Virus record (IMG/VR): IMGVR_UViG_3300045973_000298
Coordinates: 1 to 49,554 of that record
Origin: a virus
DNA length: 49,554 nt
Direction: 5' to 3' (one strand)
Part shown: piece after piece, positions 1,069 to 42,883 of the stretch
How positions within the stretch are numbered: position 1 is the stretch's first letter
Layout: each line of letters begins with the position of its first letter
Notes under the pieces: model-generated
Database searches by the model: none
What the model saw: the letters and a program-made list of their open reading frames with translations, nothing else
Told to the model about the DNA's origin: nothing
Program-made: the position numbers and the translations under genes

Positions 1069-1098
1069 GAAGGGTTTAGGCGTTAACCTAAACCCTTC
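1069..1098 (-). terminator. Intergenic 12-bp perfect hairpin, terminator- or processing-like
   Basis: GAAGGGTTTAGG (1069-1080) pairs perfectly with CCTAAACCCTTC (1087-1098) across a 6-base loop that contains GTTAAC. It sits between the genes ending at 1108 and starting at 1030. No T-tract follows on the - strand, so it may attenuate, protect a 3' end or be a processing site rather than a classical intrinsic terminator. Confidence 0.6.
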
Positions 1099-1107
1099 TC
1101 AGGACCA

Positions 1108-1845
1108 TCAAGCTGTCTTAGCCTGCTTTATCCAGCCCGGTGCTGGGGCCTTGCCTGCTTTCACGTTCTCGCCACGTTCATAGCCCATGTAATACTCGGG
1201 CGATGTCGGGTCATCGGGGTCATTGACGATTGGCGGGCTCTTGCCCATGCTGTCCATGTAGCCCATCATGTAGGGCACCCAATCGGCAGGGCGAGCGTCG
1301 TCAATGGTGACTTGATCGACTTGGTACATCTTGGCCATGAGACGCGCATCAGGCTTGCCTGCCATGACGCCGCGACTTAGCCCTGCCAAGATGTCACCTG
1401 TCATGAACTCGCGCGCTGTGCTGCCAATGGCGTTGACAGGGCGATCCATCGCAGCTTCGTAGGCGTCGCTGTCGCTGGCTAGCAGCTTAGACTCTGCCTT
1501 TGCTTCACGGATGAGCTTGTTGCCATTGTTGCCGCAATACTCACCGAGGCGCGCTCGATTGCCATAGCTATGGCAGCACTCTGCAAGTGCTTCGTCGCTG
1601 TCAGGCATGCTATCCCAGCCACAAGAGCGCTTGGCACTGGCAAGCTCTTTCTCGCCAATGGCATCGAGATCAATCTCGGACAGCTCAACGCTGTACTTGG
1701 CTTGCCCTTCGTTGTCCCTGCCACAGGCTTCGTCCATGTTCGTCACTTCGACGAAGTGATAGCGACGCTTTGCTACGTGGCGATAGAACTTGCCCCCGTA
1801 GTCAAGCATGTTCACATCGCCCATGTACTGCCATTTCGTTGCCAT
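1108..1845 (-). CDS. Hypothetical phage protein, 245 aa
   Basis: The largest gene of the left operon. The start MATKWQYMGDVNMLDYGG is supported by GAGG seven bases upstream. The N-terminal 45 residues look like a small beta sheet (WQYMGDVNMLDYGGKFYRHV). The middle is rich in Ala, Asp, Cys and Ser, with scattered Cys near residues 75-110 that do not make a clear zinc motif. The C-terminus has 'PADWVPYMMGYMDSMG' and 'EYYMGYERGENVKAGKAPAP', which looks like a repeated short MGY-containing segment. I do not recognise a family with a known function. It lies directly downstream of the hammerhead-like element at 1880-1932. Confidence 0.8.
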   Translation of the reverse strand: MATKWQYMGDVNMLDYGGKFYRHVAKRRYHFVEVTNMDEACGRDNEGQAKYSVELSEIDLDAIGEKELASAKRSCGWDSMPDSDEALAECCHSYGNRARLGEYCGNNGNKLIREAKAESKLLASDSDAYEAAMDRPVNAIGSTAREFMTGDILAGLSRGVMAGKPDARLMAKMYQVDQVTIDDARPADWVPYMMGYMDSMGKSPPIVNDPDDPTSPEYYMGYERGENVKAGKAPAPGWIKQAKTA

Positions 1846-1879
1846 ACTGTACCTCGCTTGTGAGAGTGAGAGACTGACG

Positions 1880-1932
1880 ACCCATCATCAGGCATGGCGA
1901 TACCATGCGACGCCCTTGCGGGCGTTTCGGGT
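1880..1932 (-). ncRNA. Type II hammerhead ribozyme-like element HH1
   Basis: Read on the - strand. Strand 2 of stem II is ACCC (1932-1929). The core GAAA (1928-1925) follows. Stem III CGCCC/GGGCG is closed by a GCAA tetraloop (1924-1911). The cleavage triplet GUC covers 1911-1909. Stem I GCAUGG/CCAUGC has a 5-base loop (1908-1892). The core CUGAUGA (1891-1885) leads into stem II strand 1, GGGU (1883-1880). Stems I and III are closed and stem II is open, which defines type II. Predicted cleavage lies between 1909 and 1908. One extra U (1884) sits between CUGAUGA and stem II and may slow the reaction. The element starts within the stop codon of the upstream gene. Confidence 0.8.
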
Positions 1933-2147
1933 TAGTAGCTTTCCAAGATGGTGTCTTGCTTGGACCAGATATTGCGAGCGCATAGCTGGTACTCTTCGCC
2001 GCGTTTCTTGGCGACAACCTTGGCGAGTATCATGGGTTCCGGCTTGCGCCGATACATGGCGCTGATGATCTCGCCAGACTTGGCACGGCGAACGAAGTAC
2101 AAGGCGAGAGAGGCGAGGTCTTTGGTCGGTTCAACGTTGTCTGGCAT
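1932..2147 (-). CDS. Hypothetical small phage protein, 71 aa
   Basis: Begins MPDNVEPTKDLASLALYFVR, with GGAG six bases before the ATG. It is a basic helix-rich protein with no recognised domain. It is flanked on both sides by hammerhead-like elements: HH2 (2174-2225) lies in its 5' leader and HH1 starts at its TAA stop. If both elements cleave, this gene would be released as its own short mRNA. Confidence 0.75.
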   Translation of the reverse strand: MPDNVEPTKDLASLALYFVRRAKSGEIISAMYRRKPEPMILAKVVAKKRGEEYQLCARNIWSKQDTILESY

Positions 2148-2173
2148 ATGCGCTCCAAGGGTTTGTGTTAACG

Positions 2174-2225
2174 ACGCTCATCAGGCATGGCGTTACCATG
2201 CTACGCTCTTGCGAGCGTTTCGCGT
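2174..2225 (-). ncRNA. Type II hammerhead ribozyme-like element HH2
   Basis: Read on the - strand. Stem II strand 2 is ACGC (2225-2222), then GAAA (2221-2218). Stem III CGCTC/GAGCG has a GCAA tetraloop (2217-2204). The cleavage triplet is GUA (2204-2202). Stem I GCAUGG/CCAUGC has a UAACG loop (2201-2185). CUGAUGA (2184-2178) and stem II strand 1 GCGU (2177-2174) complete the fold. All universally conserved core positions are present and the core has no insertion. Predicted cleavage is between 2202 and 2201. Relative to HH1, stem III changes on both strands and still pairs (CGCCC/GGGCG versus CGCTC/GAGCG), and stem II does the same. This covariation supports a conserved RNA. Confidence 0.85.
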
Positions 2226-2351
2226 TTACTTGTGAGACATGCTCTTGACCGTTGCCGCGTTAGTGCTCGCGACAGACGCCGCGACGCCCACTACAGCGAC
2301 GCCCATAGCTACAGCGAGAAACAAGGCAGAGAGATCAAAAAATCGTTTCAT
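2226..2351 (-). CDS. 41-aa small membrane or exported protein
   Basis: The protein is MKRFFDLSALFLAVAMGVAV followed by VGVAASVASTNAATVKSMSHK. AAGGA lies seven bases before the ATG. Two positive residues followed by about 20 hydrophobic residues give one membrane segment or an uncleaved signal, with a short polar tail. Small membrane proteins of this kind are common in phage accessory operons (lysis modulation, superinfection exclusion), but nothing here fixes the role. The TAA stop directly abuts hammerhead-like element HH2. Confidence 0.7.
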   Translation of the reverse strand: MKRFFDLSALFLAVAMGVAVVGVAASVASTNAATVKSMSHK

Positions 2352-2384
2352 AGCGTATTCCTTGGTGAGAGTGAGGGGAGCAAG

Positions 2385-2420
2385 GGAAGGGCTAAACCCA
2401 TTGCTAGGCTTAGCCCTTCC
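2385..2420 (-). terminator. Intergenic 11-bp hairpin
   Basis: GGAAGGGCTAA (2385-2395) pairs perfectly with TTAGCCCTTCC (2410-2420) across a 14-base loop, between the genes starting at 2864 and 2351. No clear T-tract follows on the - strand. As at 1069-1098, it may be an attenuator, a processing site or a 3'-end protector. Confidence 0.55.
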
Positions 2421-2429
2421 ATGAACCTC

Positions 2430-2921: not shown

Positions 2922-3010
2922 CCCTCCGTTGATTGCTCAAAGACCATCCGGCGCGGTATTCACGTTAACGCGAAACACGCTAAGCGGCTCTTGAGCAATC
3001 AACGGAAGGG
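2922..3010. repeat. Long inverted repeat in leader of left operon
   Basis: CCGTTGATTGCTCAA (2926-2940) is perfectly complementary to TTGAGCAATCAACGG (2991-3005). The flanking CCCT/AGGG extends the stem with one bulged A. The 50-base loop contains GTTAAC and GCGCGGTATT; the latter also occurs near 2894. The repeat lies upstream of the first - strand gene and could be a leader hairpin of that operon or a protein-binding cruciform. Confidence 0.65.
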
Positions 3011-3265: not shown

Positions 3266-4178
3266 ATACATGCAAACGCGAAAAAGCGCCGCCCGCAAAC
3301 GGACGCGAAAACGCTCAGGAAAATCAAAATAGCCGCAGCGCGTTAACCGAAATGCCCGCAAAATCGTTCACGAAAATCAAAATAAGGCCGCCGCTCGCAC
3401 AATGTGCGCAATTATCGTTAACGCCCATTCATGCGCCCTGGCACCCTACGCCATACCGGCGCGCCGTTTACGAAAAAGCGCAAGCGGACGCGCCGCCCTG
3501 CAAACGCGCCGCAAGCGTCCGCGCCGAATGCCTCAAAAACGAACGGAAACGCGCTTATTTCGCACGCTAAGCGCCGAACCCTTGCGCCGATACCTCCAAA
3601 AATAAAGCGCCGCAAAAGGCCGTTTCCGCTCCAAAAAACCGCAAGCTGAAATGTGCGCAACCATAGGCGTCACCCATAGGGCACCTAATACCGTTAACGT
3701 AAACGGCACACATAGGCGCACACGCTCGCCAGCAAAGCACGCAAGCGCAAGCGAACGCCCGCAAACAAAGCACTGAAAAACGAACGCTAAGCGCCCTACA
3801 AGCCACGAACGACCACTAGGCGCCATGCTCACCTGCATCGTACTCGAAACGCGCTAGAACGCAAGCGGGGCACCTAATACCGTTAACGTAAATCATCGCA
3901 CACAATGCGCAATTGTCCCACATTCCTCCCTCTCTTGTGTGCCAGCGCTAGACGTTATGCCGTACGCCATGCCATGCGGTAAACGTTAACGCGTAGCATA
4001 TGGCCACACCATGTCACGGGATGAAGGTGCGAAGCATACAGCAGGGGGGATGCCTGTGCTGTGATACCCATGTCGCCCTAATTTTTTGTGTGTGGCAGGA
4101 GTGAGTTATTGTAAACGCGTAGGAGCCTGCAGCCGTGTGCGCCGCGGATGCTGCGCATCTATTATATGTGAACGCAAA
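3266..4178. other. Gene-free T-poor spacer, possible origin or control region
   Basis: I find no gene with a ribosome site and sensible composition here. The + strand is strikingly poor in T over 3270-3830 (for example 4 T in 3481-3540) and rich in short words such as CGCAA, GCGCC and AAACG. AAAATCAAAATA occurs twice (3320-3331, 3373-3384). Variants of TGCGCAATT occur near 3404 and 3907. GTTAACG is repeated at 3344, 3416, 3693, 3882 and 3985. A perfect - strand TATAAT lies at 4161-4166 without a good -35. Position between divergent gene blocks suggests an origin or transcription control region, which is inference. Confidence 0.5.
3679..3892 (+). repeat. 25-bp direct repeat pair
   Basis: An identical 25-base sequence occurs at 3679-3703 and 3868-3892, 189 bases apart. 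It begins GGGCACCTAATACC and ends GTTAACGTAAA. The first copy continues into a GTAAAC word. Identical repeats in a gene-free spacer are typical of origin iterons or duplicated promoter/operator sites. Confidence 0.75.
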
Positions 4179-40835: not shown

Positions 40836-42883
40836 GAAAGAAAGCAGGGCCAGCACCTACGGGCGGTTACCCAGACACAGTTGATCTGGAGGGCATCAGC
40901 CAAAAAGATTTTCTTCGCTATACAGGTGACGCGAACAACAAGGGGCCAAACAACTACTATGGGTTTTGGGTTATCAACGTTGCGTCTAAGCGCTTGGTTG
41001 ACTCGATCTACTTGTATCCCAATCCACAGTCGATCCAAATGTCGGAACCCGCAGCCTCGACCATTCAAGCAATGCAGGGTGGCGGCAAGTACCTAGAGCG
41101 CCGGGGCAACCTGTTCAAGGACATTACTGTCAGTGGCACCACGGGATACATGCCCTACAAGCGAGCCATTGCGCAAAGCCGCGAATTTGATCAGCGCTTT
41201 CGTTTTCATGAAAACGAAGAGGTGGCGGGCCACCTCTTCCCAGTTTCGGGGTACGCCAAATTTCACGAGTTGCGTAACTTCTACAGGGGCTACCAGAACC
41301 AGCTGCGCACTGAGAGCCGAGATGTGGCGAGCAACTTGCGCTTCGTTTGGGTAAACCACAAAGACGAAGAATACTTCGTGGTGGAACCTCTCGACTTCAG
41401 GACGACGCGCGACAAGAGCAAACCTCTGAACTACGAGTACAGCATCCCTATGAAGTTCATCGAGGTGCTCGACAAGGCTCTCGTGGATTGGAATGACCCG
41501 ATTCTGCCGACGACAACCAAATTCGGTAAGGTGCTCGCAGGCATCGCAGCCGCAAGAAAGTGGTTGGCTAAGGTGGCCCGCTTGATCAATCAGGTGAAGG
41601 CGCTCATCAACACTATGGTGGCTGCAGTTCGCGCTGTTGTTGAGACCGCGCTGCACCTCATGGATTCGGTTTACGCCGCGGTGGATAGTTTCGTAAACGC
41701 GACGCTCGATGCTGTTCAGCTGCCACAGAGCGTCGTTGTGGCCACCGCACGCGCCTGGGCACAAGTGCTCGATGTCGCCTACGAAATTGGCTTCACGCTC
41801 ACCACAGAAACGGTTGCGGCAGTGCTGGACCTGCGGCAGTCCTGCAACATATTTGCGGCAGAGACGGACCTGTTCAAGAGTTCAATGACGGATGGATACA
41901 CGAAGTTGCTCGCCCGCTTCCCTGCCCCGGAGGGTACAATCCGTGGTTCTGAATCGGAAGCTGCAGACATCACCAGCGCTGGTAGCTCTCAAGTCACGAC
42001 GCAGAGCTTCGTCCTGCTCTTCGGAGAGACGTTGCAGATGTTTGCTGCGCGCGTGCTCGGGGACGCAGCGCGCTTCTTAGAGATCGTTGTCCTCAACAAC
42101 TTCATGGCTCCTTACGTCTCGCCTAACGATAGTGAGCGCCTACCAAACACATGCTGCCCTGGAGACGCTGTGAAATGCCCGTCTCAGGCGACCTCCCCCG
42201 AGAAGCAGCAGGCAGTGCAGCCACCCGACGAGCCACCAGGAAGCAAGCCTGACACACAGGTGGGGCAAGCGACGGACGGCACCTTTGACCTGCTGGTTGC
42301 GGACCTCACCGCGCTCCTTGAGGGCTGGCTAATTGACCGCTGGAAGGGGTTCGTCTGTGAGTTCCTCTCGGGCACAGGGGCCGGGCAGGTTGCTTTGATC
42401 GCCAGCAACACAGAGAACGTTCTCACGTTTCAAACGCCACTGGCGGTGCCGGCAGACAGGTCAACAATTTACGTGATTCGCCCTGTAACTCGAACCACTG
42501 TGACAAACCCTGCGCTAGCGGCTCTGGGAATTGACATAGCGCTGACGCAGGACAAAGACCTCGCGAAGGTTGCAACGGGTGACTTACAGAAGATCCGTGG
42601 CTTCGCAAATGTTCAGCAGGCTGTAGACAGCAAATTCGGCACGGAGCAGGGGACTCTGGTGGCGCACAATTTCTTTGGAATCAAGGCGCAGCCTGGCCGC
42701 CGTGCAGACCAGCAGAGCCTGGCCGAGCTAAGCGTAAACGCTCGACGCACGCTATTGTCTGACCCACGCATTAGAGCTATACGTCGGCTCAGTTACTCTG
42801 CCGTCAAGGATGTCGTAAACTTTACAGGCGAAATAGAGCTGAGCATGGGTGGCGTGACTCAGACGATTAGCGGAGCAACTTGA
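40832..42883 (+). CDS. Baseplate protein with LysM-like and gp25-like parts
   Basis: A 683-residue protein. The N-terminal 230 residues are a beta domain with 'YGFWVINVASKRLVDSIYLY' and 'GNLFKDITVSGTTGYMPYKR'. A long helical region follows (residues 240-340). Near residue 390 'TTQSFVLLFGETLQMFAARV' then 'FLEIVVLNNFMAPYVS' looks like a LysM/gp53-type fold. A Pro-rich linker, a beta segment and the C-terminal 'AELSVNARRTLLSDPRIRAI' with 'DVVNFTGEIELSMGG' resemble gp25-type wedge proteins. This suggests a fusion of baseplate parts that are separate genes in other phages. Confidence 0.65.
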   Translation: MRKKAGPAPTGGYPDTVDLEGISQKDFLRYTGDANNKGPNNYYGFWVINVASKRLVDSIYLYPNPQSIQMSEPAASTIQAMQGGGKYLERRGNLFKDITVSGTTGYMPYKRAIAQSREFDQRFRFHENEEVAGHLFPVSGYAKFHELRNFYRGYQNQLRTESRDVASNLRFVWVNHKDEEYFVVEPLDFRTTRDKSKPLNYEYSIPMKFIEVLDKALVDWNDPILPTTTKFGKVLAGIAAARKWLAKVARLINQVKALINTMVAAVRAVVETALHLMDSVYAAVDSFVNATLDAVQLPQSVVVATARAWAQVLDVAYEIGFTLTTETVAAVLDLRQSCNIFAAETDLFKSSMTDGYTKLLARFPAPEGTIRGSESEAADITSAGSSQVTTQSFVLLFGETLQMFAARVLGDAARFLEIVVLNNFMAPYVSPNDSERLPNTCCPGDAVKCPSQATSPEKQQAVQPPDEPPGSKPDTQVGQATDGTFDLLVADLTALLEGWLIDRWKGFVCEFLSGTGAGQVALIASNTENVLTFQTPLAVPADRSTIYVIRPVTRTTVTNPALAALGIDIALTQDKDLAKVATGDLQKIRGFANVQQAVDSKFGTEQGTLVAHNFFGIKAQPGRRADQQSLAELSVNARRTLLSDPRIRAIRRLSYSAVKDVVNFTGEIELSMGGVTQTISGAT

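Follow-up and report, generated by a model that had tools for sequence, protein, structure and literature searches.

Two paralogous type II hammerhead ribozymes overlap stop codons in a phage gene cluster and are predicted to cut its polycistronic message

Two paralogous type II hammerhead ribozymes lie on the minus strand of IMG/VR virus record IMGVR_UViG_3300045973_000298 (the window, analysed at its full length of 49,554 nucleotides), and we consider it likely that they cut the leftward polycistronic transcript of this phage co-transcriptionally. Each predicted ribozyme overlaps a gene's stop codon, and 26-34 bases separate it from the start codon of the gene that follows, so that the long transcript is probably split into pieces with one gene each. 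The preliminary description of this DNA had reported one element, at 2174-2225, which is real, but had missed the second copy at 1880-1933 (Table 1).

The window (~57% G+C) encodes a portal, an SPO1-like major head protein (39% identical to relatives of Bacillus phage SPO1), tail sheath, baseplate, helicase and DNA ligase, and is thus a phage genome. The ribozymes sit in a leftward cluster of small genes, divergent from the structural genes. The 41-aa gene had no match in PHROG or Pfam, relatives of the 71-aa protein were absent from PHROGs, IMG/VR (close-relative search) and phage records, and for the 245-aa gene neither a Pfam match nor IMG/VR relatives were found.

Table 1. Features of the ribozyme-bearing gene cluster, in window coordinates
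Feature	Position	Strand	Basis or remark
Hairpin GGAAGGGCTAAGCC...GGGTTTAGCCCTTCC	2382..2422	-	Sequence; junction upstream of 41-aa gene
41-aa gene	2226..2351	-	One predicted membrane segment (by eye); TAA 2228-2226 overlaps first base of copy 1
Type II hammerhead copy 1	2174..2226	-	Sequence and covariance models
Copy 1 stem II	ACGC 2225-2222 / GCGT 2177-2174	-	Open
Copy 1 GAAA core	2221-2218	-	Sequence
Copy 1 stem III	2218-2213/2208-2203	-	Closed by GCAA loop
Copy 1 cleavage triplet GUA	A17 = 2202	-	Predicted cut between 2202 and 2201
Copy 1 stem I	2201-2196/2190-2185	-	Closed, 5-nt loop UAACG
Copy 1 CUGAUGA	2184-2178	-	Sequence
Predicted 293-nt RNA	1909..2201	-	Released if both copies cut; carries 71-aa gene only
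Putative ribosome-binding site GGAG of 71-aa gene	2156-2153	-	
71-aa gene	1932..2147	-	Between both ribozymes; ATG at 2147; TAA 1934-1932 overlaps copy 2
Type II hammerhead copy 2	1880..1933	-	Covariance models; 90% identical repeat of copy 1
Copy 2 conserved A	1933	-	Sequence
Copy 2 stem II	1932-1929/1883-1880	-	Sequence
Copy 2 stem III	1925-1920/1915-1910	-	Sequence
Copy 2 cleavage triplet GUC	C17 = 1909	-	Predicted cut between 1909 and 1908
Copy 2 stem I	1908-1903/1897-1892	-	Sequence
Copy 2 CUGAUGA	1891-1885	-	Followed by extra U at 1884
Competing 7-bp hairpin CUGAUGA(UGGG)UCGUCAG	1874..1891	-	Would sequester copy 2 catalytic core
245-aa gene	1108..1845	-	Downstream of copy 2
Terminator-like hairpin, 13 bp	1069..1098	-	After 245-aa gene

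Read on the minus strand, copy 1 runs TAA-ACGC-GAAA-CGCTC-GCAA-GAGCG-TA-GCATGG-TAACG-CCATGC-CTGATGA-GCGT, and every hammerhead element that the preliminary description had named was found in the order and at the coordinates given there. It had also placed stem II at the base after the TAA of the 41-aa gene; the position is right (2225 after 2226), but the element also includes the final base of that TAA, a conserved A (2226), so that ribozyme and stop codon overlap instead of lying side by side. The core (C3-U4-G5-A6-N7-G8-A9 and G12-A13-A14 with A15.1-U16.1, seen as CUGAUGA and GAAA...GU) is intact in both copies and its bases are identical between them; position 17, which has to be A, C or U, is A in copy 1 and C in copy 2. 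Stems I and III are closed and stem II is open in both, and all 16 pairs are formed in alignment to the independent model described below. The copies share a 49-nt repeat of 90% identity with six substitutions, four of which make up two compensatory pairs (stem II G-C to C-G, stem III U-A to C-G), the other two being the change of base 17 from A to C, both cleavable, and one change in loop I. Nothing is inserted between A9 and stem II in copy 1, and one extra U is present there in copy 2. Counting against cutting by copy 1, its GUA triplet is rare (1 of 116 other elements, among the matches listed); GUA is usually cleaved more slowly than GUC.

A covariance-model search, proposed as a check in the preliminary description, gave opposite answers with two models. 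Rfam RF02276 (Hammerhead_II) matched copy 1 end to end with 21.7 bits and copy 2 (match 1874-1932) with 26.7 bits, both below its gathering score of 37, which taken to the letter is the covariance-model half of the refuting outcome named in the preliminary description, whereas an independent model, built from 35 other phages' elements that share the window geometry (taken from the motif matches listed, with the window left out), gave 63.8 bits for copy 1 (E 2e-15) and 57.1 bits for copy 2 (E 1.4e-13). In the 35-element alignment 99.5% of cells pair and 13 of the 16 pairs have changes on both sides, with a covariation score of 0.919; shuffled alignments gave 0.189, and sliding gave no more than 0.144. 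The Rfam gathering score is a curated threshold and not a structural feature; at this cut-off RF02276 reports 2 and misses 12 of 14 other phage loci with textbook subclass members, and misses all 19 elements of three multi-copy arrays (L214-L216), and it is therefore not a fair test of the window elements. The standard threshold thus misses most of a common phage subclass. As printed, RF02276 has stem II pairs that seem one position off the C11.1-G10.1 pair, an offset that could add to the low scores of elements with a 4-bp stem II. Partial matches to the element turned up in a BLAST search of phage records, and the two examined, in Pseudomonas phage tf and Vibrio phage 1.139, were rejected as ribozymes by the independent model. 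Core, permutation, compensatory changes, independent model and phage genes together support the original assignment to a type II hammerhead at a phage gene junction.

The 2.9 million viral contigs of IMG/VR were scanned with a motif in which the core bases and the GNAA loop were fixed and all stems were left free. At least 119 contig stretches matched, and with the intact core 114 of 122 distinct matches, among those listed, form complete stems III and I. Were structure alone selected, altering an unpaired catalytic base should leave many stem-forming elements. In the same contigs, G at position 17 returned 2 stretches (0/2 forming stems), a G5A core returned 7 (0/7) and a G12A core returned 62 (0 of the 50 distinct matches scored). 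These single changes, which should block cleavage, combined gave 0/59 stem-forming matches, among the distinct matches scored, against the proportion above for the intact core, which argues that selection acts on cutting and not on folding alone; as the mutant-core scans returned no stems, they also make the rate of chance, structure-free matches visible. A stricter later scan, with a pattern that included neither stem II nor the conserved A, gave 33 fresh elements, all of which had every stem paired and the conserved A (33/33); this pattern matched 64 stretches in viral contigs compared to 2 in 257 billion bases of prokaryotic genomes.

In 90 of 116 elements, among the matches listed, a frame of at least 50 codons has its stop codon ending 0-9 nt upstream of G12, compared to 4.7% of random positions, and the commonest spacing is 4 nt, so the last bases of the stop codon are usually the first bases of the ribozyme. 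Stop adjacency was also seen in the fresh set (28/33, null 4.3%). Downstream, 86 of 107 elements have a start codon with a ribosome-binding site no more than 90 nt away (null 28%), at a median distance of 29 nt from CUGAUGA, both among the matches listed. With the independent model, 24 of 50 whole virus records hold at least two copies, always on one strand within a record, and some hold up to nine, at close to one per gene or junction. In the 43-kb phage L214 each of nine successive gene junctions has an element, and the single genes between them measure ~67-258 aa. Across L214-L217 and L219, all of them other uncultured phages, type II hammerheads were observed in runs of four to nine, one gene junction after the next. 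The window pair, with its 293-nt spacing and the 71-aa gene in between, is a small-scale example of such arrays; no further copy was found in the window, where the next best site (41591-41635, 17.1 bits) holds stem II and core fragments only.

The predicted cuts would occur during transcription of the leftward message. Each would leave an upstream mRNA that closes with the stem III hairpin and a 2',3'-cyclic phosphate and a downstream mRNA beginning with the stem I hairpin at a 5'-OH, with the next ribosome-binding site intact, and the 71-aa gene would be freed as a separate 293-nt message (5'-OH at 2201, 2',3'-cyclic phosphate at 1909). As both predicted cut sites fall between a stop codon and the next ribosome-binding site, complete coding units would be left. 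We infer that both copies cut and that they do so in infected cells. It is plausible that the stem III and stem I hairpin ends shield the products against exonucleases, and the purpose would be to make the stability and translation of each gene independent of its neighbours. More tentatively, the pseudoknot-free subclass, which overlaps stop codons and recurs up to nine times along successive gene junctions, might serve as punctuation in mainly lytic phages, with the terminating ribosome covering stem II and the GAAA strand; if this is true, cutting would be timed by translation of the upstream gene.

Several other readings of the pair were weighed against co-transcriptional cutting by both copies. 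Chance resemblance, to which the sub-threshold Rfam scores of both copies could point, was rejected on the E values of the independent model and on the occurrence of two copies with compensatory changes, and its probability is negligible. The elements might instead be selected as structured hairpins, for the protection of RNA ends or the spacing of genes, and not for cutting: stems I and III fold into stable hairpins, and plain hairpins mark other junctions of this operon (2382-2422 and 1069-1098). Hairpins, however, need neither CUGAUGA nor GAAA nor a non-G base at position 17, the unpaired catalytic bases are strictly kept, and none of the 59 matches with a change that should block cleavage forms stems; the core-mutant scans rule out structure without catalysis as the main reading, and we judge it quite improbable. 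The pair would be an excision unit if ligation closed the 293-nt RNA into a circle that encodes the 71-aa protein, as two same-strand ribozymes exactly flanking one gene might suggest, and RtcB-type ligases are suited to the 5'-OH and 2',3'-cyclic phosphate ends that cutting would leave. Arrays in other phages, however, flank many different genes, and in the available text of PMC3088659 spliced or circular products were sought in comparable arrays and none were seen, making excision highly improbable.

The remaining alternative concerns copy 2, where the competing hairpin is the minimum-energy fold once the tail is transcribed (-28.5 compared to -25.1 kcal/mol for the ribozyme fold, a gap of 3.4 kcal/mol) and the computed probability of native stem II at equilibrium is 0.01. 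Copy 1 alone would then be active, and copy 2 would be decaying or a switch, its core trapped by the extra U and the downstream UCGUCAG. This appears unlikely, given that the ribozyme fold of copy 2 has the lowest energy as long as the tail is not yet transcribed, which makes co-transcriptional cutting possible, and that 25 of 116 phage elements, among the matches listed and belonging to many different phages, also have an extra U before stem II (one further element has A), so that it is tolerated. Core-complementary tails are, moreover, only weakly enriched across the class (8 compared to 3.9 expected, Watson-Crick pairs). As a general class feature the core-sequestering tail was rejected, the enrichment being weak and some cases being related sequences, and the tail was therefore kept as a local feature of copy 2 only. 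The competing hairpin may slow copy 2 or lock the product after cleavage.

The subclass to which the window copies belong has a 6-bp stem I, a 5-nt loop I and a 4-bp stem II, usually without a pseudoknot, whereas in the longer form stem II is usually 3 bp long and 54 of 68 elements, among the matches listed, have a loop I pseudoknot of 4 bp or more. Loop I of the subclass follows U-N-R-N-G, with U first in 53/54, a purine third in 49/54 and G fifth in 47/54, and an invariant A precedes stem II in 54/54. The loop UAACG of copy 1 could pair with CGUUA after stem II, and copy 2 is without such a match; a loop I pseudoknot was rejected as a subclass rule, since 25 of 48 elements are without a complementary stretch of at least 3 nt and only copy 1 reaches 5 (matches listed). 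Since the U-turn consensus is U-N-R, a turned loop may take the place of the pseudoknot in the docking of loop I.

Elements of this kind are already known. In the available text of Perreault et al. (2011; PMC3088659), natural type II hammerheads and their pseudoknots are described, clustered around single prophage genes, with cleavage seen for three natural tandem arrays in vitro and for one array in E. coli, and mRNA processing is proposed; as type II hammerheads flanking prophage genes were published there, the novelty that the preliminary description implied goes beyond what that literature allows. Compared to the published type II set, as far as the available text and RF02276 describe it, the window elements have the 6-bp stem I, 5-nt U-N-R-N-G loop and 4-bp stem II, fall under the Rfam cut-off and overlap a stop codon, and most published elements, and apparently the Rfam model too, rest on the loop I pseudoknot that the window subclass is generally without. 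The same available text yielded no description of an extra U between CUGAUGA and stem II. In a partial literature search we found no earlier report of stop-codon overlap of phage hammerheads, of long one-per-junction arrays, or of a pseudoknot-free subclass falling under the Rfam threshold. Faecalibacterium phage FP_Mushu (MG711460, 2237-2302), a phage with a cultured host, carries an unannotated type II hammerhead that, as in the window, overlaps a stop codon (that of AUV61518.1) and is followed by another gene, here within 20 nt, and that has an extra U before stem II (as copy 2); unlike the window elements it is a single copy with a GCCC/GGGC loop I pseudoknot and A at N7. Tandem hammerheads likewise cut out unit-length RNA in retrozymes, viroid satellites and other hammerhead circular RNAs, but those are of types I or III and mostly make non-coding circles, whereas the window has type II elements between the protein genes of a DNA phage. 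With two copies in a 350-base segment, predicted cut sites and a nearly fixed stop overlap, the mRNA-processing idea and the question of whether translation gates cutting become directly testable, and both bear on the purpose of hammerheads in phage genomes, a question since 2011.

The nearest relatives by the 148-aa gene of the window (L004 and L005) had no such element in their available sequence, so the element is not essential to the lineage; a distant relative with this gene (35% identity) has two elements, one directly after a TAA. A Hammerhead_HH9-like match of 15.9 bits (plus strand, 2044-2094) falls within the 71-aa gene in antisense orientation, and the 2382-2422 hairpin also gave a chance match to a miRNA-like fold. 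Upstream of the 148-aa gene is a 19-nt inverted repeat, 95% complementary, with its arms 50 nt apart (2922-2940 and 2991-3009). An exact 25-nt repeat, GGGCACCTAATACCGTTAACGTAAA, occurs at 3679-3703 and 3868-3892, and many GTTAACG motifs are found in the 3.3-4.3 kb region between the divergent gene clusters; the repeat and the motifs are possibly phage promoters or an origin.
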